DNA from: Accumulibacter sp.
GTDB taxonomy: Bacteria > Pseudomonadota > Gammaproteobacteria > Burkholderiales > Rhodocyclaceae
Length of the DNA stretch: 64,000 nucleotides
Direction: 5' to 3'
Assembly: GCF_029255125.1 (NCBI RefSeq)
Contig: NZ_JAPUVR010000076.1
Location: forward strand, 62,001 to 126,000
Both the position numbers and the translations under genes were made by a program. The notes under the pieces are model-generated. The model searched no databases. It was not told the DNA's origin and saw nothing but the letters and a program-made list of their open reading frames with translations. Positions 49,373 through 61,580 of this stretch are shown here, piece after piece. The stretch's first letter is position 1. Each line of letters opens with the position of its first letter.

Positions 49373-51928
49373 TCAATCCGGCGTGCTGGAGCGCCCAAAC
49401 TCGCGACTGGGCTGTTGTCGACCCGGTAGCCCTCCATCCTGACCGGAGGCTTCACGCCAATACGCGTCGATATGACCTCGAAGAGTGGCCTCATCCGCAC
49501 CTCTGTGGCGAAAGACACCTCGATCGATCATTCGCGCCACCTGACTGACAAGCCCGCGTACTTCGCGCTCTGTTTGACTGCTGACGAGCGCCAGCCGCTC
49601 GCCGAGACAACCCATCGCGGCTGCCTCGCCCAGGCTCTCCATCATGTCGAGATAGATCTCGGCATTGGCCTGAACCGTGTGCACCGCGAAGTCGATTGCT
49701 TCATCTCCTCCGTGCCAATGGCTCTTGGAGATCGTCTTCAAGGCATAGAAGACCGGTGCGCTGGATCGCGAGATCCTGTGAACGGCTTCGGCTATCTGGG
49801 CGACCGCCGGATCAGCAAAGCGGTAGCCAAACGCCATGAAGTTTGGTTCCTGCTCCCCGGTCAGAAGGCCCTGGCTTTCCAGCTTACGCTTGATCGCAGT
49901 ACCTTCATTGACGACAAGCGGTCGAAAAGGCCATGTGTTGTAACGCACCAGACCGTTCGCCCTGAAAAAGGCGGTATTCTCAAGAAGCTCTTCAACGCTT
50001 AGACTTGGATCGAACATGATGAAGCCGACGTCGATGTCCAAGTCGAGATCCTGAAGCACCTGCAGTGCGCACAAGGTATCGCCGAGAGTCTCTTTCCGGT
50101 TGTACCGGAGTTTCTGCGCTTGACTGCCGCTTTCCAGCCCAATATAAACGCGCGTCAAGCCGGCATTCCGGAGAAGCTGCAGCGCTTGTCGAATCCTCTC
50201 GTTTTCTTCGGCGATCTTCCTCGTTCTTGGCTCCCTGGAAACGATCAGAGGCGTTGTAAAGATTCGGAACGAGAGACGCGTTTGCCACTTCTGGCCTATC
50301 GCGGCCATCCCGAGAGCAAAATCATGAATCCGGTTCAAGGCGGCTGCGCTTCGCCCGCCAAAAAACTCGTCGTCGCAGAACTCGATTTCGCTGATTCCCC
50401 GAGAAAGGAAAATCTCGACGTTCCGAAAAACTCGTTCGAGAGAAAAATGCCGCCACTTTGTGCTGGGCGAAGGCGTGGTGACTTCGCCAATGGCTTCAAT
50501 CTTGGTTGAGGCGTTGAAGCTGCTCCAGCGGGTGCAATAGGTACAGCTAAACACACAGCCGCGGCTTGTCTGGATCATGTTCGTCATCCCCGGCTTGACG
50601 GTGTCGCCCGAGGGTGGGTGCGGCAGCGCCTCAAGGTCCAGGTTGACCAGCGGCGTGCGGCGGATCGCGCCCGTCTCGCGGCAACGGTAGACGACATTGT
50701 TGATGTCAGGAAGCTGGGTCCGCCCGCGAATCAGCTCGACGAGGCCGCGCATAACCAATTCGCCCTCGTGCAGGCAGACGATTGCAGTTGGTACACGCAA
50801 GTCATTCAGAAAGCGCTCAGGGAAATAGGTTGGCAGCTGATTACCGAGAACAAGAATCGATCCTCGTGCCCTGGGATCCTGGCTATGCCAATCAAGGTAA
50901 CGGTCTACCAGCGGTAGCGTACCGAGCTCGACCGACAATCCAACGATAGCAGGGAAAGTGGGGCGCGCACGATTGAATACGGTATCGACCAAATCCAGGC
51001 GATCCAGCCGGCGCACACTGATCGCGACTTCGTCGCCATACTCTCCACGCAAATCACCTGCCAGCGTTTCGACACTGAGGTTATTCCACAAGGCGTAGTG
51101 CCATGGAGAGCCGAAAGTTACGAACTCGATGTCGATCGGTGTGAGCGGAGACTCCTTGGCTAGGATAGCGCCCAGCCTGTTTCGCAAAAGCCCGTCATCC
51201 GGCCCATCCTTGCGTCGCAAGTCGCTGGCGCGACGCTCTGCGATCAGGTAGCCGGCATTAGTGCGAATCTGACGGCCGATCGTGCCAGGCAGGAGTTCGA
51301 GCTTGTCCAGAAGGTCCTCAGCGAACGCGAGTTCGGCGGCTTGACGAGGCGTCAGTCCGTAACCTGGGCTCTGCTGGTTCAGCTCGATCAGGCGATCGAG
51401 CACCCAGCGACGCGTGGCCGCGGGAACAGGGCCGCTACGGTCTTCGTTCGTCAGCGAGTGGTAATACGTGGCAAAGGCCAGTAGCTGACGCAGTTCATCG
51501 GTATCCAACTCGCTAAAAAGCTGTTCTCTCAGGTAGAGCGCGTTCCCATCGCAGGCGGCCAGAAAGTCAATGCCTTTGCAGCGAAAGGAATAGCGCCGGA
51601 GCGCTTGGCAGTGACTTGCGGAGGCGCTGCGTGCGGGCAAGCCGGCAGAGTCAACCGCGCGTCGTGGCTGGAGGCATCCGTCGGAAACCGCTTGAGCAGA
51701 TGGGTCACCAACGATCACGAGACGTGATGGTGAACTCGCGTGATCGATCTCGGGCGCCAAGTCCCGAAGTGAACGCGCTGACCATGAACACTGTGCGATC
51801 AGACTATCGAGGGAAGCCCCAAGGTGCTTTAGCTGGTAGCGCGTGGGGGGAGGGAAACCCGGCGCGACAAGCCCGGTTGTTCGACGGCCTGGGTTCGCTT
51901 CGCTGGCCGACGACCGTGACGCGCTCAT
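49373..51928 (-). CDS. B12-type radical SAM enzyme, last gene of accessory operon
   Basis: From ATG 51928 the protein has 851 residues. An unusual N-terminal part (about 1-120) is rich in Ser, Ala and Arg; a helical region follows. Residues about 265-420 look like a cobalamin-binding Rossmann domain (RGSILVLGNQLPTYFPERFL, then VCLHEGELVMRGLVELIRG), but without the DxHxxG motif of base-off B12. The radical SAM core has the CX3CX2C cluster motif in SRGCVFSCTYCTRW (cysteines near 458, 462, 465) and RVYIGLESGSQAQKLRYNRK. The substrate is unknown. The start forms an ATGA overlap with the upstream regulator gene; the frame is open 7 codons further. Codon choice is more A/T-rich than in neighbours, suggesting transfer. 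Confidence 0.8.
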   Translation of the reverse strand: MSASRSSASEANPGRRTTGLVAPGFPPPTRYQLKHLGASLDSLIAQCSWSARSLRDLAPEIDHASSPSRLVIVGDPSAQAVSDGCLQPRRAVDSAGLPARSASASHCQALRRYSFRCKGIDFLAACDGNALYLREQLFSELDTDELRQLLAFATYYHSLTNEDRSGPVPAATRRWVLDRLIELNQQSPGYGLTPRQAAELAFAEDLLDKLELLPGTIGRQIRTNAGYLIAERRASDLRRKDGPDDGLLRNRLGAILAKESPLTPIDIEFVTFGSPWHYALWNNLSVETLAGDLRGEYGDEVAISVRRLDRLDLVDTVFNRARPTFPAIVGLSVELGTLPLVDRYLDWHSQDPRARGSILVLGNQLPTYFPERFLNDLRVPTAIVCLHEGELVMRGLVELIRGRTQLPDINNVVYRCRETGAIRRTPLVNLDLEALPHPPSGDTVKPGMTNMIQTSRGCVFSCTYCTRWSSFNASTKIEAIGEVTTPSPSTKWRHFSLERVFRNVEIFLSRGISEIEFCDDEFFGGRSAAALNRIHDFALGMAAIGQKWQTRLSFRIFTTPLIVSREPRTRKIAEENERIRQALQLLRNAGLTRVYIGLESGSQAQKLRYNRKETLGDTLCALQVLQDLDLDIDVGFIMFDPSLSVEELLENTAFFRANGLVRYNTWPFRPLVVNEGTAIKRKLESQGLLTGEQEPNFMAFGYRFADPAVAQIAEAVHRISRSSAPVFYALKTISKSHWHGGDEAIDFAVHTVQANAEIYLDMMESLGEAAAMGCLGERLALVSSQTEREVRGLVSQVARMIDRGVFRHRGADEATLRGHIDAYWREASGQDGGLPGRQQPSREFGRSSTPD

Positions 51929-52767
51929 GCTTGCACAACCTCTTTCCACAGATCGGCCGCGAGTACGGCACCTAGCCTGCGCTGGTCCACCTTCCGATGA
52001 AGCGCCACCATCTCATCGACCACGTCTCGAGCGGGGCGAGTAACCGACAGGTATTCCCAGTCGAATCTGCTGAGGTAGATGTCGGGCAGCACCAAGCGGT
52101 AGGGAAGCCCGCGTCGAACCATTTCGAGCGCTGACAGATAGGAGGTCGCGATCGGTCCTTGCGGCGTCATGACTTCGGGGTCGACCAGAGCAACGCTGCG
52201 GTTAAGCTGTTCTCCGTAACTCCCGGACTCCCAGATCAGCGTCGAGGGCATCCCCCCGCTTGCTGCCCTCGGCGCGGCGATGGCAGCCTTCCACTGGGCG
52301 AGAGAAACCATTTCGACATCCTCATCGATCGCCGTCACAGAGCCTCGGTGCACGATGGCGAGGTCAATCTCCCCGTCGCGCAGCGCGTCCATCACTTGTG
52401 CCGATCGCAGAAGCAGTGCGCGAGGTGCGCAATCCAGTCGCGCAAAAACCTGCCGTACCAGCATGGCTGAAAGACTGCCGGCAGAAACGCGAGGAAAGCG
52501 TATGGCGGCAGCAACATCGGCTTCGCTGCGCCGAATCGCTGCAGCCAACCGCCTTACCTCTGCGGGGAAGACTAGTCGGTGCCCGTCCTTCCAGTTCAGG
52601 CCCGTGTCGCCGACAACCTCGTCTATCCGCTGCAACAAGCGGTCGACGGAGGCTCGGTCCACGCCGAGAAACGTTGCCGCTTCGCTCTTGGACGATGGGT
52701 TCCTCGCCACCAACTGGACGAGCGCTTCCATGTCTCGCCGCGTCAAGCTCATCCGATCACGAGGCAT
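51925..52767 (-). CDS. LysR-like transcriptional regulator
   Basis: The 280-residue protein has an N-terminal winged-helix region (MEALVQLVARNPSSKSEAAT, then FLGVDRASVDRLLQRIDEVV), laid out as in LysR regulators but divergent in the recognition helix. An effector-binding domain follows (LRSAQVMDALRDGEIDLAIV, VEMVSLAQWKAAIAAP, SALEMVRRGLPYRLVLPDIY). It lies inside the operon between the glycosidase-like and radical SAM genes, whereas LysR genes are more often divergent from their targets. AGGAGG precedes the ATG by about 7 bases, and the stop overlaps the radical SAM start. It may autoregulate the operon; the effector is unknown. Confidence 0.72.
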   Translation of the reverse strand: MPRDRMSLTRRDMEALVQLVARNPSSKSEAATFLGVDRASVDRLLQRIDEVVGDTGLNWKDGHRLVFPAEVRRLAAAIRRSEADVAAAIRFPRVSAGSLSAMLVRQVFARLDCAPRALLLRSAQVMDALRDGEIDLAIVHRGSVTAIDEDVEMVSLAQWKAAIAAPRAASGGMPSTLIWESGSYGEQLNRSVALVDPEVMTPQGPIATSYLSALEMVRRGLPYRLVLPDIYLSRFDWEYLSVTRPARDVVDEMVALHRKVDQRRLGAVLAADLWKEVVQA

Positions 52768-52778
52768 GGTGCCCCCTC

Positions 52779-53738
52779 CTAGAGATGATCCGCCAGCACC
52801 GGATGGCTTACCGGCTGCGGAAAGCTGCCCAAGTCGAACTCAATGAATGCGGTGCCTGTAGGCCGATGATTGGGGCCAGCAACGACGACAACCGGCGTAG
52901 CGCCTGCTTCCGGGCAGTAGTACCAGCCAACACTGCCACCGTTATCAAGGACAATCGCCTGTTCGACGCCCAAAGCCGCCAGAGTGCTGGCGATGCCGGT
53001 CAGCGCGCCGGTGATTGCCGCACACAGGACGGAGCCGTCGGAACGTCCGCCCAACACACAGTGCAGGAGATTGCGGCTTGGCTTCGCACCGTGGCATTGG
53101 GCGACTGCGTCTAGCCGCCGGTATAGGGTTTCGTCATCAACACCATCCTGCTTGCCAACCTCCCACGCGTTGGCCAAGTCGTGCCAAGCCTGCGCCGACG
53201 GTCCAATCAGACCCTTTGGATGCACCTCGTAGGCGTGCGCGGGGTCGGAGCAGTTGGCAACAACAAACGATCGCGGCACCGGTCTGCCGTCGATGACCAG
53301 CGGAAGTCCAGTCAAGGCGTCCAGTTCCTCAGGAAGACGGCCCAAGCTGTGGAACGAGACGCCACCTTCCCCCAGCGCGGCAACCGGCCAACCGGGATCA
53401 AGCGGCGGATCGCCGGCTCGACCAAACCACAAACCGTGAAACCGCAGCCGGAAACCGAACTCGTTCAACACATTCCGCGCACCGACGAAGATTGAATGCC
53501 GGCGACCTTCCCCGCGCGCCAGCAGATCAGCGGCGTACCGAACACCGGAGCCATAATCGCGCCAGGGAAGTTCAACGCGCGGCTCTTCGTTCCGAGCCGC
53601 GGCTATGCGCTCGGAACGGGCAGACGATCGCACGTACCCGTAGCTTGAGGTCGTCGCAGCCTCAGCCCCAGGAAAGTGCGCGCGAGCCGGTGTTCCCGCC
53701 GGGATATCGAGAAGTGCAAAGTGTGCGAAACAGCTCAT
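52779..53738 (-). CDS. Phosphodiester glycosidase-like (NAGPA-type) protein
   Basis: The 319-residue protein ends in a domain resembling phosphodiester glycosidases of the NAGPA/DUF2233 fold, which remove a sugar (classically GlcNAc) from a sugar phosphodiester. The best match is SVLCAAITGALTGIASTLAA followed by LGVEQAIVLDNGGSVGWYY (residues about 237-274), equivalent to the family's LDGGGS block. FVGARNVLNEFGFRLRFHGL corresponds to the N-terminal substrate region. One conserved Gly is Asn here (LDNGGS). No signal peptide is seen, so it is probably cytoplasmic, unlike many relatives. It starts 18 bp after the kinase gene, with AAGGA seven bases before the ATG. Family assignment is moderately secure; the reaction is an inference. 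Confidence 0.62.
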   Translation of the reverse strand: MSCFAHFALLDIPAGTPARAHFPGAEAATTSSYGYVRSSARSERIAAARNEEPRVELPWRDYGSGVRYAADLLARGEGRRHSIFVGARNVLNEFGFRLRFHGLWFGRAGDPPLDPGWPVAALGEGGVSFHSLGRLPEELDALTGLPLVIDGRPVPRSFVVANCSDPAHAYEVHPKGLIGPSAQAWHDLANAWEVGKQDGVDDETLYRRLDAVAQCHGAKPSRNLLHCVLGGRSDGSVLCAAITGALTGIASTLAALGVEQAIVLDNGGSVGWYYCPEAGATPVVVVAGPNHRPTGTAFIEFDLGSFPQPVSHPVLADHL

Positions 53739-53756
53739 GAAGCAATCCTTGCGGGC

Positions 53757-55637
53757 TCAAGCCAGAAACACGGGGTCAATCTCTCGGACGGATGTGTCGC
53801 CCCCGAGTTCAGACCTGGGCGAAGCAAAGATCTCCCATGCCGCCTTGGCAGCGCCCATGGCCGCCATGCTTGCCTGTGGCTTGTCGGCTAGGAATTCCAA
53901 GCCATTGATCGCGTGAGGCGCGTCCGGACCATCGGTGTCGAAGCCGTAAAGCGTCTTCAAGTGCTCCTTCGCTCTCCGGCTCAGTTCTGCGCCGATGGCG
54001 GTGATGGGGCCGCCAGACAAGTACACGGCATTTGCCTTGAGGACATCGGCACACATTGCAATAAGATCCGCTGCCAGCCATGACGCTCTTTCCAACAGGC
54101 AGCCCAGCGTGCAGGTACCGGAGATATCGCTCACCGTCAGGTATTTCTCGTCAAGGTAGTCCCGGCGCGCTTGCCAAAGAATCGTCTTGCGCTGCTGATC
54201 GTTTCCAATCCATTCGAGCTGCTCAGGTAGCCTGGCGAAGAGTTCCTCCGCGCACTGGGCCTCCTCTGATGGACACTCCTCTTGGTTCCAACGTTTGTAC
54301 AGCCAGCTCACTTCCCTGTTACTCACAGCCGAACCGACAAGATCCTTTGCGATGCGCGGATTGGTTTTTTCCGAGAAGAGCTGATTGGCAACCCCAGCGG
54401 GAAAGTTGCCACCTCTATCCTTCTGGCAGGCAAGAAACGGTTCAACCAGATTGATGATCGTCTTCCCGACCTCGCTGAGAAACGGAGCGATAGCGCCGTC
54501 TTCGATAAGCCCAAGCGCCGTTCCCGTTCCGGCCACCATGACCATCAAGCGTTTGTCGGACAACACCGTGGACGCCTTGAGTAGCGATCGAGCGAAGATG
54601 ACGTGGCCGTCACCGTCATTGATCAGTCGAACACAATCCCCAAAAAGACCTACGAAACCCTCGCGGATTTTCAGAGCATGAATGGCGTCCGGCGAATTGG
54701 CCGTGATCGTCGAGCTGAGTCTTTCGAAGTTGCCCATGATTCCACTCGGGCCAGCGACGTACTCACGCCCAGCTTTGCCGCGCACCGGACCGGGCCACGT
54801 TATCCCGACACACAGACTCTTTGGATTTAGACCTTCCTCGTCGAGGACCGGTTTGATCTGACTGAACACATACTGACAAAAATCCTGTCCGTCCTTGAAC
54901 TTGAACTCTCTTTGAGTGCGCAACGCACCCTGCCTGATTGGCGGCCAAGGGTAGCCGCCCGAGACCGATGGTCCGAACAAGCCCCATTTGATCGACGTGC
55001 CGCCAATATCGATACCAAGGACACGCGGAGACTTCTCAGCCGCCCGATGTGGAATCGCGTCGTGCGAACCTTGGTCAGCCAGATCGAGATACCGAGCGCA
55101 GCCAACCTGAAGCAAGAAGGCACGTAGCGTGTCGTGATTGTCTTGCTGCTGTACCCACTTGATCGCTTCGATCCATTGTTTCCACGGCGAATCGATTTGC
55201 TCGCCGGACTTTGCGTTGCGGAACTCGATTTCAAGCCGTCCTGGTCCAAGCAGCATGCGAAGATTGACCCAAGCTGCGGCCGCACAACGAGCGACTACCA
55301 AGCGTTCATTCCACCAGCCATCATCGGGAGAAGCATCTGATTCCCGCGCTAGGTCCAGAGCACTCTTCAGGCTGTCTTCCTCTGGGGCGTGCAAGGGCAG
55401 CGGTAGCGCGAAAGTTCTGACCGCGATGCTGTCGGGCACCTCTGCCGACCACTTGAGGAGCATCAGGCAAAAGCCTTCTGGTCGCTCGCGATGCAGTTCC
55501 CGCAGCACTCGATTCACATACGGAACTGGCAGAAAATCGTGGCCGCCGAACTTCCAAGACCGAGGCTCCCAGTTTCTATACCTCTCGATAGCTTTCCGAA
55601 TGTCGGGCCACGGATCAAAATCAGCAATCATGCTCAT
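53757..55637 (-). CDS. ROK/glucokinase-like sugar kinase with novel N-terminal domain
   Basis: From ATG 55637 the protein has 626 residues. The first 200 form an unrecognised domain (FGGHDFLPVPYVNRVLRELH, MLLKWSAEVPDSIAVRTFAL). The rest is an ASKHA-fold kinase. Its phosphate-binding loop is LGIDIGGTSIKWGLF (DIGGT at about 210), followed by LCVGITWPGPVRG and RLINDGDGHVIFARSLL with the candidate catalytic aspartate. MVMVAGTGTALGLIEDGAIA and AVYLSGGPITAIGAELSRRA bind adenosine. The ROK zinc motif (CxCGxxGC) is not visible, so it may be glucokinase- or BadF-like. The start overlaps the upstream gene's stop (ATGA). A sugar kinase beside a phosphodiester glycosidase suggests the released sugar is phosphorylated. 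Confidence 0.72.
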   Translation of the reverse strand: MSMIADFDPWPDIRKAIERYRNWEPRSWKFGGHDFLPVPYVNRVLRELHRERPEGFCLMLLKWSAEVPDSIAVRTFALPLPLHAPEEDSLKSALDLARESDASPDDGWWNERLVVARCAAAAWVNLRMLLGPGRLEIEFRNAKSGEQIDSPWKQWIEAIKWVQQQDNHDTLRAFLLQVGCARYLDLADQGSHDAIPHRAAEKSPRVLGIDIGGTSIKWGLFGPSVSGGYPWPPIRQGALRTQREFKFKDGQDFCQYVFSQIKPVLDEEGLNPKSLCVGITWPGPVRGKAGREYVAGPSGIMGNFERLSSTITANSPDAIHALKIREGFVGLFGDCVRLINDGDGHVIFARSLLKASTVLSDKRLMVMVAGTGTALGLIEDGAIAPFLSEVGKTIINLVEPFLACQKDRGGNFPAGVANQLFSEKTNPRIAKDLVGSAVSNREVSWLYKRWNQEECPSEEAQCAEELFARLPEQLEWIGNDQQRKTILWQARRDYLDEKYLTVSDISGTCTLGCLLERASWLAADLIAMCADVLKANAVYLSGGPITAIGAELSRRAKEHLKTLYGFDTDGPDAPHAINGLEFLADKPQASMAAMGAAKAAWEIFASPRSELGGDTSVREIDPVFLA

Positions 55638-56761
55638 CGCGTCGCTCCTCCCGCCTGCACGGACCTCGGCGAAACATGACCAGTGGTCTTGACATCGCGC
55701 ATTCTGGTCTCGAGCCAAGAATCAAACGAGCCCAGACTAACGTGGAAAAAACGATGCCCATCCGAAGAACCGCCGTACCAATCGCGTTCGACAGAGTCTT
55801 CCGGCATTGTAGAATGTCGGTCAAGAATCGCTTTGGACAACCTCTTTACGTCGGAATTGCACCACTGACGGCCTAGGCTGATCGAACAAAAACCCAGCGT
55901 GTCGGGGTCGAGAAGCTGCGGTTTGATCCCCTCGATAATGCTATCGCATAGCTCCGGCGCTTCACCAAAATGGTAGTTGCCGTACTCAATGGAAATGAGG
56001 ACACGCTTTTCTACCTGGCCAGGGGCTGCTGGTGACCGTTCGGCAAATTCGTCGATGGCATCGCACGAGCCCGCACCGGGCGAAGCTAAGCCATGAATGG
56101 CGTCGAGCGCCAGCGCCGCATACGCGCAGGAGCGCCAGAAGGGTTTTGATACCTGCCCACCGACGGCGTCCAAGATGACCGCCTTGAGGTCGGCCTGGAG
56201 CTTGCACTTGGAAGACTCCTCGTCATCACAAGGCGCCCCACAATGTGGATAGGTCAGCACCTCAGAAGGCTTTCCATGACTCCACAGGGTGGCGCGAAGC
56301 GAATTCTGGAAGGCAATCATCGCACAGACCAGACGTGCCACATCGTTTCCCAGTGTCGACTTCAGCACATGCCACGCGGCGTTGGCAGAGAAAAAGTCGT
56401 GGTGCCATGGCTGGTGCCAGGCGTCATGGCTGTGCAGAACGGCGAGATAGCTCAGGTAGGCCCAGGATGTGTGTCCCTTTCCCTTAGGCAGCTCGACATC
56501 TGGCCGCAGCATGTCCGCAGCATAGTCATACTCCGGGCAAAGGAAGTGGCCAAGCCGCTGCATCGAGCGCCCCAATCGCTGGCGGACCCGCTGGAGCAGA
56601 AAGTCCTGCACCCAGCGCCGGCTGGCGTTGGCGGTGACCCAGGCACTCGTGTCCACGTCCGCGGGCACCGACTGGCTCAACTGCTTGAAGAAGTCCCCCG
56701 CGCTTCCTTGGAATACCTCCTTCGAAGGAAGGATTACCCTGCTGATTCCACCCGCCGCCAT
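55634..56761 (-). CDS. First gene of accessory operon, Cys/His-rich protein of unknown family
   Basis: The 375-residue protein starts MAAGGISRVILPSKEVFQGS. I do not recognise the family. It is mostly helical, with a His-rich block (VLHSHDAWHQPWHHDFF, about residues 126-142), cysteines in PHCGAPCDDEESSKCKL, and a later mixed segment (KRVLISIEYGNYHFGEAPEL). The His block could bind metal. No signal peptide or membrane segment is seen. ATG 56761 is supported by AGGAGG eight bases upstream; an ATG two codons earlier is too close to it. The frame stays open to 57055, but that part covers the promoter at 56799-56826. Its stop overlaps the kinase start. Confidence 0.68.
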   Translation of the reverse strand: MAAGGISRVILPSKEVFQGSAGDFFKQLSQSVPADVDTSAWVTANASRRWVQDFLLQRVRQRLGRSMQRLGHFLCPEYDYAADMLRPDVELPKGKGHTSWAYLSYLAVLHSHDAWHQPWHHDFFSANAAWHVLKSTLGNDVARLVCAMIAFQNSLRATLWSHGKPSEVLTYPHCGAPCDDEESSKCKLQADLKAVILDAVGGQVSKPFWRSCAYAALALDAIHGLASPGAGSCDAIDEFAERSPAAPGQVEKRVLISIEYGNYHFGEAPELCDSIIEGIKPQLLDPDTLGFCSISLGRQWCNSDVKRLSKAILDRHSTMPEDSVERDWYGGSSDGHRFFHVSLGSFDSWLETRMRDVKTTGHVSPRSVQAGGATR

Positions 56762-56798
56762 CTTCATTCCTCCTCGGAGTACGTTGGAGAGCGACTTC

Positions 56799-56826
56799 AA
56801 TGTAGCATGTATACATCTAAAGTCAA
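56799..56826 (-). promoter_or_regulatory. Sigma-70 promoter of the accessory operon
   Basis: On the minus strand TTGACT (56826-56821) is followed after 16 bases by TACATT (56804-56799). Transcription would start near 56792, about 30 bases before the first ATG, with AGGAGG between. The palindrome at 56807-56816 lies inside the spacer, where a bound protein would block RNA polymerase. Confidence 0.6.
56807..56816. promoter_or_regulatory. Operator-like palindrome ATGTATACAT, proximal copy
   Basis: A perfect 10-bp palindrome lies between the -35 and -10 hexamers of the operon promoter. A second identical copy is centred 65 bp upstream, and a partial copy (ATGTATAAGT) lies near 56859. The TGTATACA core resembles operators of FCD-type GntR repressors, but no such gene is in the window, so the binding protein is unknown. 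Confidence 0.55.
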
Positions 56827-56871
56827 CCAGTTTGGCCCTTTCCGGCGACACTTGGTCGATGTATAAGTTGT

Positions 56872-56881
56872 ATGTATACAT
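56872..56881. promoter_or_regulatory. Operator-like palindrome ATGTATACAT, distal copy
   Basis: This is identical to the copy at 56807-56816. The 65-bp distance is about six helical turns, so two bound dimers would lie on the same face of the DNA and could cooperate or loop. Confidence 0.5.
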
Positions 56882-57407: not shown

Positions 57408-57797
57408 ATGCTTGCACGCGTATTCGCCGACTGTCTGGTGGTCATTCACCTGTTGTTCATCTGCTTTGCCGTTGCTGGCGGCCTCTTGGTCCAGCGTTGG
57501 CCAAAGCTCGCGGTCGTTCATCTGCCGGCCGCGGGCTGGGGTGCTTTCGTCGAGCTGAGTGGCTCGACCTGTCCGCTGACACCGATCGAGAACCGCCTGC
57601 GGCAAGCCGCGGGGCAGGCAGGCTACACGGAAAGCTTCGTCGAGCACTATCTGCTGCCGGTGATTTACCCGGTCGGGCTGACGCACGACATCCAGTTCGC
57701 CTTGGCCGGCGTCGTCATCGTGGTCAATCTGGGCCTTTACGCGTGGCTGCTCCTCAACCGCTGTAGCGAGCGACATCGTCGCAATCCAGCAGACTAG
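57408..57797 (+). CDS. DUF2784 integral membrane protein
   Basis: The 129-residue protein has three hydrophobic segments: [29 protein letters not shown] as part of a weaker one, and [18 protein letters not shown]. The DUF2784 signature is present: an N-terminal VIHLLFI..F helix, then [20 protein letters not shown] and [20 protein letters not shown]. The family is common in proteobacteria and has no known function. The start has a weak GGGAA site. It is transcribed away from the accessory operon and converges with the collagen-like gene. Confidence 0.88.
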
Positions 57798-57914: not shown

Positions 57915-58373
57915 TCAGGCGGCCGGCTCAGCCTGCGTCTTGCTGGCCGGTTCTCCCGGCGGACCTTTCGGGCCCGCCGGTCCTTTGGCGCCCGTTGGGC
58001 CTGGCGGTCCAACCGGACCTTGCGGGCCCGTCGGACCAGCGGCACCGCTCTTGCCGGCCGGGCCGGCCGGGCCGGCCGGGCCGGCCGGGCCAGCCGGCCC
58101 CTGCGGACCAGCCGGCCCCGTTGGTCCCGCCGGCCCGGCAGATCCTGTGGCACCAGTCGCTCCGCGTTCGCCCTTGGCTCCGCTCGGGCCAGGTGCACCG
58201 GGTGGGCCGGGCGGGCCTTCCTTCAGTTGGAGCTGGGCCAGGGTCTCCTCGAGCGCTGTAATGCGATCCTGCAGCGCCTGGAGCGCGCCCGGGTCGACGG
58301 CCGCGGCCGGTTGCGCCTTCGCTTCCCTCACTTTTGCCGAAGCCTTCTTGTCTTTCTTGTCCTTCTTCGTCAC
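57915..58373 (-). CDS. Collagen-like Gly-X-Y repeat protein
   Basis: From GTG 58373 the protein has 152 residues. The N-terminus is Lys-rich ([19 protein letters not shown]). A short coiled coil ([19 protein letters not shown]) could trimerise the chain. Residues about 53-142 are 30 uninterrupted Gly-X-Y triplets, many of them GPA or GPP. The short tail [10 protein letters not shown] ends it. No signal peptide, membrane segment or anchor is visible, so secretion is unexplained. The GTG has GAGGAG seven bases upstream; an open extension to 58502 is not convincing. Bacterial collagen-like proteins usually form triple helices at the cell surface, on spores or in phage tails; the role here is unknown. 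It lies downstream of msbA and the GGDEF-EAL gene in the same direction. Confidence 0.85.
58053..58097. repeat. 9-bp tandem repeat inside the collagen-like gene
   Basis: The unit GCCGGCCGG occurs four times without change (58053-58088), then once with one substitution (GCCAGCCGG). It encodes consecutive Gly-Pro-Ala triplets. Being in frame, gain or loss of units would change collagen length without a frameshift. Confidence 0.85.
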
Positions 58374-58523
58374 TCGGTGTCTCCTCTCTTGATCGGAATG
58401 TGCGGAGTATCGACGCTTCGACGCTCCGTTTTCACTAATACACTCAATGCAACACTGGGTCAATACGGAGAAAGCGTCGAGTTGGTCATCGGCCCCGCGC
58501 ATTGGCGGGTGAGCCGCTCGCGG

Positions 58524-61500
58524 TCAGTCCGGCTGCACAGTCGGGCCAGGAGGATCGGCGGAGTGTTGCTGCAGGAAGCGGTTGAAATCCGCAACCTGCA
58601 AAGGCCGGCTGAACAGGTAGCCTTGATACGCGTTGCAGCCGCGCGCCGCGAGCGCATCGCGCTGCTCGTCACTCTCCACACCTTCGGCAATCACCGCCAG
58701 GCCCAGACTGTGTGCGAGCGCGATGATCGTGTCGGCGATCACTTTGTCGTTGGCGTCGGTCAACAGGTCGCGCACGAACGACTGGTCGATCTTCAACTGG
58801 TCGAAAGGCAAGCGTTTCAGGTAGGAGAGCGATGAATAGCCGGTGCCGAAATCGTCCAGCGAGAAACCAACGCCGCGCTTCTTGAGCGCGGCCATCTTGC
58901 CGATGGCGTCCTGCATGTTGTCGAGGAGAAGACTCTCGGTCAATTCGAGCTTCAGGTTGCACGGCGAAGTGGCTGAGGCGGCGAGCACGGCGAGCACTTG
59001 GTCGACGAAGTTCGGTTGGCGAAACTGCCGGGCGCTGACGTTGACCGATACGGTGAACTGCTCACGTCCGGGCAGTGCGGCCCAGACGGCCGCCTGCGCA
59101 CACGCCGTTTCGAGCACCCATAGGCCGAGCGGCAGAATCAGCCCGGTTTCCTCGGCGAGCGGGATGAACTCGCTCGGCGAGATCATTCCGCGCTTTGCGT
59201 GTTGCCAGCGGACGAGCGCCTCGGCCCCGATCACCCGACCGCGATCATCGACCTGTGGTTGATAGGCGAGAAAGAAGCTTTGCCGCTCCAGTGCCTCGCG
59301 CAGGTCCTTCTCGAGTGCCACGCGGGCGGTGACCACGGCCTGCATCTGCGGGTCGAAGAAGCGCAGCGTATTGCGTCCACCAGCTTTGGCTTCATACATC
59401 GCGAGATCGGCGCGTTTCATCAGGTCGTCGGTGCTGACTCTTGCTCCGCCGAAGAGCGCCACGCCGATGCTTGGCGTGTTGTGGTATTCGTAGCCCACCA
59501 GATCGTATGAACGATTGAGCACCGCGAGAATCTTCTCGCCGATCGTGCGACACTGCGCCGCCGCGTCATCGATGCGCTCGCCGAGGTTTTCCAACATGAC
59601 GACGAACTCGTCACCACCGAGGCGGGCAACCGTGTCGCGCTCGCGCACACAGGCGAGCAGGCGACGCGCCACTTCCTGCAAAAGGCGGTCACCCATGTCG
59701 TGCCCTAGCGTATCGTTGAGCGTCTTGAAGTTGTCCAGATCGATGAAGAGCAGGGCGCCCTGCTGACGATTGCGCTTGCTCGCCGAGAGCGCCAGGCGCA
59801 GCCGCTCGTGCAGCAGGCGGCGGTTGGGCAGGCCGGTCAGCGCGTCGTAGAAGGCGAGTTGCTGAATTTCTTCCTGCGCCTTCTTGTGCGCCGTGATGTC
59901 GGCAAGCGTGCAGACGTAGTGCGTCACGTGTCCTTCGGCATCACGCACCGACGAAATGGTCAACCACTCGGGATAAATCTCGCCGTTGCGACGCCGGTTC
60001 CAGATTTCGCCCTGCCAGGCGCCGCTCTGGGCCAGCGACTCGCGCATGGCAGCGTAGAACGCTTCGTCGTGCCGCCCCGAGCGGAGCAGGCTCGGCGAGC
60101 GCCCGAGGCACTCCTCGGCCGAGTACCCGGTGATGTCGGTAAACGCCTGGTTGATGCGCAGAATGACGCCGTCGGCCGAAGTGATGAACATTCCCTGCTG
60201 CGACTCGAAGGCCGTCGCCGCAATGCGCTCCCATTGTTCTGCCTGCTTGCGCTGCGTCACGTCGTGCGAGACGATGACGATGCGCGCCGGTCGACCCTCC
60301 TTGTTGGTGATGACCTTGCCGGCCGACGCGATATGGCTGACGCTGCCGTCGTGGCGCAGGAGCCGATACTCGATCGCCTGGCCAACGCCGTTTTCGACCG
60401 TCTGGCGAAATACGGCCTGTACACGCTCGCGGTCTTCCGGATGCACGTCGGCGAACGAGTTGCTGCCGGTCAATTGACGCTCGTCGCCAAAAAACTGGCG
60501 GTACGACGGGCTGTTGTAGAGCCGCCGCCCCTCCAGGTCGAGCACCGCGATATGTTCGCCGATGCTTTCCGAAATCAGGCGAAAGAACTCCTTCTGCTCG
60601 CGCAGGCTGCTTTCGAGCATTTTTCGTGCGGTGATGTCCTGCGTCGTCCCGACGCTGCGCAAGGGGCGCCCCGCCTCGTCGAACTCGACTTCGGCACGCT
60701 GCGCGACCCAGCGCGTCGTGTCGCCGATGACGATGCGCACTTCGATATCGAGCGCTTCGCCGCGCAGCGCGGCTGCGCTGGCGTGCTCGAGGGCTCGGCG
60801 ATCATCCGGATGGATGCGCTGCATGAACTCGTGCAGATCGCGCGCTGTCCCGCTGCCGAAACCGTAGATCCGGCAGGCTTCGGCCGACAATTCGACGCGA
60901 CCGCTGGCCAGATCGAGCACCCAACTACCCACATGTGCCACCTCCTGCGCGCGATTCAGGCTTGCTTCGCGCACCTGCAGCTCGACGCTGCGCTGTTCAA
61001 GATCGCGACTCAGGCGGCGAACCTCCTCAAGTCGACCCTGATACGTGCGGATGAGGAAAATGATCAGGAGCAAGGCGACCGCGGCATTCGCCAGGTGTAC
61101 GACGCTGTGCAGCGCGTCCGGCGTCGGCGGTCTGGGCAGCAGCTTCAGTGCATCACTCAAGGCGAAACCGGCGATCGCGCTCATCGTCGCCGCGGCCAGG
61201 ACGACGGCCACGCGCGTGCCGAGCAGCCAGCCGCCCATCAGGATGAGCAGCGGGTAGCTCGCAGTGAGCGGCGCATGCGCACCGCCGAAGAGCAGCCCGG
61301 TACCGGTGATCGTGACCCAGCTTCCCCAAACGAACACGCTCAACGCTGCGTGCAGGCGACCGACCGAGAACAGGCGCAAGGCGAGCAGCGCGACCGTGGC
61401 CATCGTTGCCGGCCCGCAAGCGCGCAGCGGCTGCTCCGGAATGAGCAGGACAATCGCCGCCAGGCCACCCAAGGCGGCAAGCAGAATCAACCATGCGGCA

Positions 61501-61580
61501 TAGCGGAGAAATTCCAGCGGCGGCGCCCAGAACGACGGCGGTTCGTTCTTCCGCGGATGCGGCGATGACCGTTCGTGCAT
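58524..61580 (-). CDS. Membrane PAS-GGDEF-EAL cyclic-di-GMP signalling protein
   Basis: The 1018-residue protein has about six membrane segments (roughly residues 22-185). Three PAS/PAC domains follow (about 205-320, 325-440, 445-570), with motifs such as GSWVLDLASGRVELS and ITGYSAEECLGRSPSLL. A GGDEF domain begins LAFYDALTGLPNRRLLHERL and has an intact RLGGDEFVVML. An EAL domain carries AEALVRWQHAKRG, SLDDFGTGYSSLSYLKRLPF and KIDQSFVRDL. Both catalytic motifs look intact, so it could make or degrade cyclic di-GMP; many such proteins favour one activity. The membrane part and PAS domains suggest control by an external or redox signal. It starts 15 bp after msbA, with GGGGGA before the ATG. 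Confidence 0.94.
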   Translation of the reverse strand: MHERSSPHPRKNEPPSFWAPPLEFLRYAAWLILLAALGGLAAIVLLIPEQPLRACGPATMATVALLALRLFSVGRLHAALSVFVWGSWVTITGTGLLFGGAHAPLTASYPLLILMGGWLLGTRVAVVLAAATMSAIAGFALSDALKLLPRPPTPDALHSVVHLANAAVALLLIIFLIRTYQGRLEEVRRLSRDLEQRSVELQVREASLNRAQEVAHVGSWVLDLASGRVELSAEACRIYGFGSGTARDLHEFMQRIHPDDRRALEHASAAALRGEALDIEVRIVIGDTTRWVAQRAEVEFDEAGRPLRSVGTTQDITARKMLESSLREQKEFFRLISESIGEHIAVLDLEGRRLYNSPSYRQFFGDERQLTGSNSFADVHPEDRERVQAVFRQTVENGVGQAIEYRLLRHDGSVSHIASAGKVITNKEGRPARIVIVSHDVTQRKQAEQWERIAATAFESQQGMFITSADGVILRINQAFTDITGYSAEECLGRSPSLLRSGRHDEAFYAAMRESLAQSGAWQGEIWNRRRNGEIYPEWLTISSVRDAEGHVTHYVCTLADITAHKKAQEEIQQLAFYDALTGLPNRRLLHERLRLALSASKRNRQQGALLFIDLDNFKTLNDTLGHDMGDRLLQEVARRLLACVRERDTVARLGGDEFVVMLENLGERIDDAAAQCRTIGEKILAVLNRSYDLVGYEYHNTPSIGVALFGGARVSTDDLMKRADLAMYEAKAGGRNTLRFFDPQMQAVVTARVALEKDLREALERQSFFLAYQPQVDDRGRVIGAEALVRWQHAKRGMISPSEFIPLAEETGLILPLGLWVLETACAQAAVWAALPGREQFTVSVNVSARQFRQPNFVDQVLAVLAASATSPCNLKLELTESLLLDNMQDAIGKMAALKKRGVGFSLDDFGTGYSSLSYLKRLPFDQLKIDQSFVRDLLTDANDKVIADTIIALAHSLGLAVIAEGVESDEQRDALAARGCNAYQGYLFSRPLQVADFNRFLQQHSADPPGPTVQPD

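Follow-up and report, generated by a model that had tools for sequence, protein, structure and literature searches.

An accessory unit of five minus-strand genes, here called A to E, spans positions 49373 to 56767 of a 64,000-nucleotide stretch of an Accumulibacter sp. genome, most likely that of a wastewater organism (contig NZ_JAPUVR010000076.1; the whole stretch is hereafter the window). Gene E belongs, on the basis of its sequence, to the OxsB clade of cobalamin (B12)-dependent radical S-adenosylmethionine (SAM) enzymes. The interpretation that we tentatively favour is that of an autoregulated cassette that would carry out radical chemistry on a phosphorylated nucleoside or a comparable sugar phosphate. 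The genes are as follows.

55634 to 56767, minus strand: gene A, a protein without assigned function; 377 amino acids (aa) from the ATG at 56767, or 375 aa from the ATG at 56761
53757 to 55637, minus strand: gene B, an N-terminal domain of ~200 aa followed by a C-terminal ROK-like kinase region; 626 aa
52779 to 53738, minus strand: gene C, weakly similar to NAGPA (PF09992) over the C-terminal half of that family; 319 aa
51925 to 52767, minus strand: gene D, a winged-helix-turn-helix-like and a LysR-substrate-like domain; 280 aa, putative regulator of the operon
49373 to 51928, minus strand: gene E, a B12 radical SAM enzyme assigned to the OxsB clade; 851 aa, with an N-terminal domain of its own (~270 aa), a cobalamin-binding domain, a radical SAM domain (CxxxCxxC) and a C-terminal region

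An earlier sequence-only reading described a minus-strand operon of five genes with two ATGA overlaps and gaps of 11 and 18 bp, and this layout is confirmed. The overlaps lie at the A/B and D/E joints, the gaps between B and C (18 bp) and between C and D (11 bp), and another genome of the genus (G020, locus L003) has all five genes collinear. Protein identity between the two copies is 44% for A, 61% for B, 82% for C, 80% for D and 77% for E; gene A has changed fastest, and the rates of A and B are clearly above those of the other three. Third codon positions are more diverged than first and second positions in all five genes (for E, over the first 648 codons), which argues that the five open reading frames (ORFs) are real coding genes. 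The reading frame of E is interrupted in G020 beyond residue 658 or so (L003 5900-8654), through assembly error or decay. The start of gene A was misplaced in the earlier reading: the ATG at 56881 is part of an operator-like palindrome. The G020 protein begins at the residue matching the window ATG at 56761, with 56767 as the alternative, which moves the start to 56767 or 56761. Conservation of gene order, promoter and twin operators supports, at the level of sequence, the proposal that the five genes form one co-transcribed accessory unit, although distant relatives of E occur without A to D.

The earlier label of B12-type radical SAM enzyme for gene E is upheld by matches to PF04055 (radical SAM; expect value 1.6e-11) and, under the curated cut-off, to PF02310 (7.8e-5). 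A CVFSCTYC motif stands at residues 457-464 (458-465 counting Met), and NCBIfam models of other B12/radical-SAM subfamilies give scores far under their cut-offs. When a two-row profile of E is searched against the Protein Data Bank (PDB), a single significant match is obtained, OxsB at 1.1e-25, the next being at 0.76; the alignment covers the cobalamin and radical SAM domains over ~340 positions. A 19-row tree groups E and its G020 copy with OxsB and with sequences from Sphingobium, G001 (another genome of the genus), Agrobacterium, Nocardia and two Streptomyces, with support of 100/99. Addition of 28 further B12/radical-SAM rows (46 rows) leaves this clade intact with 98% SH-aLRT support and places none of the 28 inside it; E and OxsB thereby stand together against 38 other rows. 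The added rows come from a clade-profile search that matched 65 of 398 genomes; 30 loci among the matches listed were placed, namely the window, G619 and 28 new ones. OxsB enters these trees as residues 166-495 alone, their branches are long, and the rows include no characterised methylase; the branching order inside the OxsB clade is not settled by them.

The possibility that E is instead an ordinary cobalamin-dependent radical SAM methylase, with a small natural product not related to nucleotides as its substrate, has to be weighed here and appears unlikely. Methylation is the commonest B12/radical-SAM reaction according to a review (PMC13331322) and to abstracts, and some clade members are clustered with genes for a pyridoxal phosphate (PLP) enzyme and a formyltransferase (L059, L060). 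Yet TsrM, TokK and Mmp10, presented in the same review as structurally solved methylases, are not among the PDB matches up to an expect value of 1, where OxsB is matched, and E remains far under the cut-offs of the NCBIfam methylase models.

The second component of the favoured interpretation, autoregulation, would act through three elements upstream of gene A.

56799 to 56826, minus strand: sigma-70-like promoter, TTGACT-N16-TACATT, with position and spacer length kept in G020
56801 to 56815, minus strand: proximal operator-like site, TGTATACATGCTACA, which overlaps both spacer and -10 hexamer
56866 to 56880, minus strand: distal operator-like site, TGTATACATACAACT, lying 65 bp further upstream

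The promoter counterpart in G020 is TTGACA-N16-TACACT, and the operator-like pair there consists of a proximal site, TGCATAGATAGTACA, and a distal site, TGTATAGATAGTACA, 64 bp upstream; both sites are 15 bp long in the window and in G020. Each of the two scanned regions contains one promoter-like site on the minus strand, at the same upstream element, in agreement with the single promoter proposed earlier; with both strands counted, site numbers are not above those of shuffled sequences within their spread. Because operator position and spacing are common to both copies, one regulated promoter is likely. A pattern derived from these sites, TGTATASATRSTACA, gives four matches per genome at up to two mismatches, two of them here, and its reversed control has 3 and 12 matches in the two genomes. 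The operator core ATGTATACAT is seen twice in the window's own genome of 3.83 Mb, each time at the cassette, and is absent from the G020 locus.

The candidate ligand of these operators is gene D, the regulator gene common to both cassette copies. Its Pfam matches are weak (TrmB 0.014, HTH_29 0.03), no LysR helix-turn-helix family is found at an expect value up to 1, and the match to the LysR substrate-binding domain PF03466 (0.001, 18.9 bits) lies under the cut-off of 28. Judged by these profiles, D is not a canonical LysR protein. A GntR/UTRA gene was also considered as the conserved regulator and rejected; it adjoins the operon only in G020, and nothing in the window genome matches it, which is why D is preferred. 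D would most likely act as the autoregulator of the operon by binding the twin operators.

The cassette is rare. It is found in 2 of 28 genomes of the genus. Among 61 relatives, the 28 of the genus included, two have a homologue of kinase B, namely the window genome and G020; among 369 genomes of the class one has it, its own. A scan of genome contigs for kinase B, limited to two short peptide patterns, matched a single record, Ca. Accumulibacter contiguus. The profile of C likewise retrieves only its own genome among 399 of the order, with at most five candidates scored per genome, and no match was obtained in plasmid searches with A, B, C and D or in viral contigs with two peptide patterns for each of the five genes. 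Gene E is more widely related: its profile matches 3 of 28 genus genomes (the window, G020 and, weakly, G001) and 3 of 398 genomes of the phylum (the window and two weak matches), and searches with it give 11 plasmid records (best 1e-32, none covering more than 80% of the query) and no match among annotated phages. The co-occurrence of the five genes, put forward in the earlier reading as a check, holds for B, whose homologues were found only in genomes with the whole set, and does not hold for E, whose relatives lack A to D at 6 clade loci and 37 others. G+C content at third codon positions is 0.64-0.69 in the operon genes as against 0.76-0.82 in seven flanking genes. Together with the patchy distribution, this low value suggests that the five genes are a rare accessory cassette, probably acquired from elsewhere.

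The upstream neighbour at 57408-57797, which we take to be a DUF2784-like gene, is present in 23 of 28 genomes of the genus. When 13 window genes were tried at 10 loci of this neighbour, some of which end at contig ends, it was the sole gene common to all 10; weak GGDEF-like matches occur in two of them and MsbA-like matches in two, and no clean empty insertion site was found among the 10. The flanks of the cassette resemble housekeeping genes, as judged by eye only. Further upstream in the window, a minus-strand ORF at 57915-58502 carries a long collagen-like G-x-y repeat and lies just downstream of 58524-61580, also on the minus strand, by eye a GGDEF-EAL protein.

For the cassette as a whole we infer a nucleotide-type substrate and the following division of roles. 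By analogy, E would use the 5'-deoxyadenosyl radical and cobalamin to rearrange or otherwise alter the sugar moiety of its substrate, a phosphorylated nucleoside or comparable sugar phosphate. B would provide that substrate or phosphorylate it anew, and C would remove a sugar or a phosphate from an intermediate or the product. D would respond at the twin operators to a compound of the pathway, and A may be an accessory or substrate-specific part. The closest characterised systems are OxsB of oxetanocin-A biosynthesis (PDB 5UL2-5UL4) and AlsB (albB) of albucidin biosynthesis, whose core is alignable with that of E and which belong to the same clade. Passages of a review (PMC13331322) name these two as ring-contracting cobalamin radical enzymes; the substrates given are 2'-dAMP, dADP or dATP for ring contraction by OxsB and 2'-dAMP for AlsB. 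In the albucidin cluster, albB is described as the OxsB homologue, and a second radical SAM gene is required along with it (PMC7074753). A nucleotide-like natural product, mentioned in passing in the earlier reading, fits this kinship of E, the firmest functional clue of the cassette; the glycosidase-based biochemistry proposed with it loses ground, because C and B both miss family marks. The statement that no described pathway has this set of genes agrees with the open-licence literature searched for the gene combination, in which none was found; neither the pairing of a phosphodiester glycosidase with a radical SAM enzyme nor Accumulibacter with radical SAM and nucleoside was found in that literature.

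A number of observations weigh against the favoured interpretation, and the first group concerns E itself. Its identity with OxsB is 29% over 292 columns, a distance at which function changes, so that the function may differ. Asn186 of OxsB, which coordinates cobalt through waters (PMC13331322), corresponds to Glu333 in E (334 counting Met), and this Glu is kept in G020; since the other clade members in the alignment carry K or T at this position, Asn186 may not define the clade. The N-terminal domain of E gives 0.2% in hhalign against the N-termini of the OxsB-like proteins of Agrobacterium and Streptomyces, and no match to these N-termini is detectable. A C-terminal stretch of E is weakly similar to OxsB-like plasmid enzymes. 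The partners differ as well. Besides E the cassette has four other genes, among which there is neither OxsA nor a second radical SAM gene: in Pfam scans at an expect value up to 1, the five proteins contain no OxsA-like phosphohydrolase family and no family of the AlsA/albA radical SAM partner.

The same adverse weight attaches to the two partners from which the sugar and phosphate chemistry would come. Gene B carries the ordered motifs DIGGT, NDGDG, AGTGTA, ExGK and SGGP and aligns with ROK sugar kinases in hhalign at 76.6% (2e-5). It shares with them, in order, the phosphate-1 motif DIGGT, a GTG motif that we take to be phosphate-2 and a presumed adenosine-type motif. It differs from ROK kinases in an extra N-terminal domain, in EVGK at the place of the sugar-binding ExGH and in the absence of the CxCG zinc motif. 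Both of these marks are present in 25 of 25 ROK comparison rows (30 top-scoring loci, less four with stops and one without the first motif). No Pfam family, PF00480 included, matches B at an expect value up to 1, and its first ~200 residues match no family. Gene C matches PF09992 at 21.7 bits (2.6e-4), under the Pfam cut-off of 25 and in its C-terminal half only, the N-terminal half being unrecognisable. There it shares LDxGGS, as LDNGGS in place of the LDGGGS that we take to be the mark of the NAGPA family, and the hhalign match (9.5%) begins just before this motif. The NAGPA rows were drawn from five loci and one plasmid protein, of which four were used and two lacked the motif by which ORFs were picked; as the four were chosen by a GGGS-type motif, their 4/4 motif count is circular. 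AlphaFold models of the two proteins are unusable (pLDDT 36 for C and 42 for B), and PDB sequence searches with B, C and D give chance-level matches only, such as that of B to the polyphosphate/ATP glucomannokinase 1WOQ (0.8). Gene A is without a Pfam, NCBIfam or PADLOC match at an expect value up to 1 (in the longer reading from 57055 that was scanned) and without a PDB match up to 5; among PHROGs it matches a single group, whose function is unknown, at 0.046. The NAGPA, ROK and LysR labels of the earlier reading amount to sub-threshold or motif-level similarity, with family marks missed in C, B and D.

These two genes, B and C, are also the ground of another reading, built on the earlier proposal, in which the cassette serves salvage or editing: C would free a sugar from a glycosylated phosphodiester, B would phosphorylate that sugar and E would modify the remainder, the substrate being a lipid, polysaccharide or cofactor and not a nucleotide. 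The weak NAGPA match of C, the ROK-like motifs of B and the fact that the two genes are adjacent and conserved together are consistent with it. The sub-cut-off score, LDNGGS motif and low hhalign value of C and the ExGK of B tell against it, as does the nearest characterised kin of E found here, which is a nucleotide enzyme; we regard it as rather improbable.

The neighbourhoods of OxsB-clade relatives bear on the favoured interpretation in both directions; nucleotide-related genes beside some of them speak for it. On a Sphingobium yanoikuyae plasmid (L004), a GntR gene, a SurE nucleotidase, the radical SAM gene and a NUDIX gene stand together. The enzyme, 29% identical to E over 480 columns and 575 aa long, lacks the N-terminal domain of E, and its partners, nucleotidase and NUDIX, include none of A to D. 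In G001, a genome of the window's genus (L016, G001:C11, 5942-11066), a phosphorylase with a NACHT-like ATPase region (PNP_UDP_1 3.8e-11, PDC-M60C 1e-38, NACHT under cut-off), a B12 radical SAM enzyme and a NUDIX protein form one run, with an NsnA-like gene (2.2e-62) near the clade enzyme; the run is a possible defence operon using cobalamin radical chemistry. On an Agrobacterium pusense plasmid (L019, 4506-10791), OxsB-like, second radical SAM, NUDIX and galE genes are followed by a glycosidase on the opposite strand and an MFS gene, possibly a nucleoside antibiotic cluster. Like the cassette, this locus has an OxsB-clade enzyme near a PF09992 protein, here with a full score (2.1e-18, four genes downstream of the OxsB-like gene). 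It is unlike the cassette in that this glycosidase matches C at best with a blastp expect value of 1.7, that the radical SAM genes form an albucidin-like pair and that A to D are absent. The Streptomyces MMBL locus has phosphoribosyltransferase and HAD genes, and the S. europaeiscabiei and Nocardia loci (L059, L060) have endonuclease/exonuclease/phosphatase, PLP-enzyme and formyltransferase genes.

A NUDIX motif lies within 4 kb at 3 of 6 OxsB-clade relatives and at 2 of 37 loci of other B12/radical-SAM genes (Fisher test, one-sided, 0.014, or 0.023 with the cassette as a seventh, negative member), in a test chosen after NUDIX genes had been seen, with one motif pattern and with some loci short. 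The 37 are 27 loci from genomes and 10 others (L064 is L021, counted once), and the neighbourhood counts leave out the plasmid matches H9-H11, H15, H22 and H23. Two further points belong with those that speak against our interpretation. The NUDIX motif is absent within 4 kb of E in both the window and G020, and A to D are found beside none of the 6 clade relatives of E, nor beside any of the 37 other loci (tblastn, expect value 1e-3, with G020 as positive control). The family of E is therefore not tied to the A-D set, and our interpretation is slightly weakened, since A to D do not stand beside any out-of-genus relative of E examined.

The two NUDIX-bearing loci outside the clade, with the G001 run, speak for the view that the cassette is an anti-phage or inter-bacterial system whose product, like that of viperin-like enzymes, would be a nucleotide that is toxic or terminates chains. 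At one of them, G619 (L017, G619:C3, 3808-8520), an adenosine-deaminase-like protein, a viperin-like protein (pVip 1.2e-10), a B12 radical SAM enzyme and a NUDIX protein are encoded side by side; a thymidylate-kinase-like ORF is also seen there by eye. At the other, Streptomyces phage SF3 (L063, 3569-6143), the gene for a B12-binding radical SAM protein, found solely with the Sphingobium protein as query (8e-6), is followed by thymidylate kinase and NUDIX genes. The rarity and patchiness of the cassette would agree with a defence function, as would the NACHT-like phosphorylase protein adjoining the G001 relative and the NsnA-like gene near it. The cassette itself gives one PADLOC match at an expect value up to 1, PDC-M51A at 2.2e-6, on a fragment of E (best stretch 428-521) and not on most of the protein; its flanks look housekeeping-like, and the evidence comes from relatives, two of them outside the clade, which makes this view quite unlikely. 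Least probable is a self-regulated module of nucleotide weaponry, in which E would turn a cellular (deoxy)nucleotide into one with an abnormal sugar, active against phages or competing bacteria, parallel to viperins but by cobalamin chemistry, and the kinase and glycosidase-like proteins would install or remove a protecting phosphate or sugar.

With gene E, the OxsB clade reaches Accumulibacter, in a five-gene setting not found described in the open-licence literature, and the conserved operator pair makes induction of the cassette testable. As clade relatives are carried on plasmids or stand beside defence-type genes, and a distant relative is encoded by a phage, B12 radical chemistry on nucleotides may extend beyond the two antibiotics.

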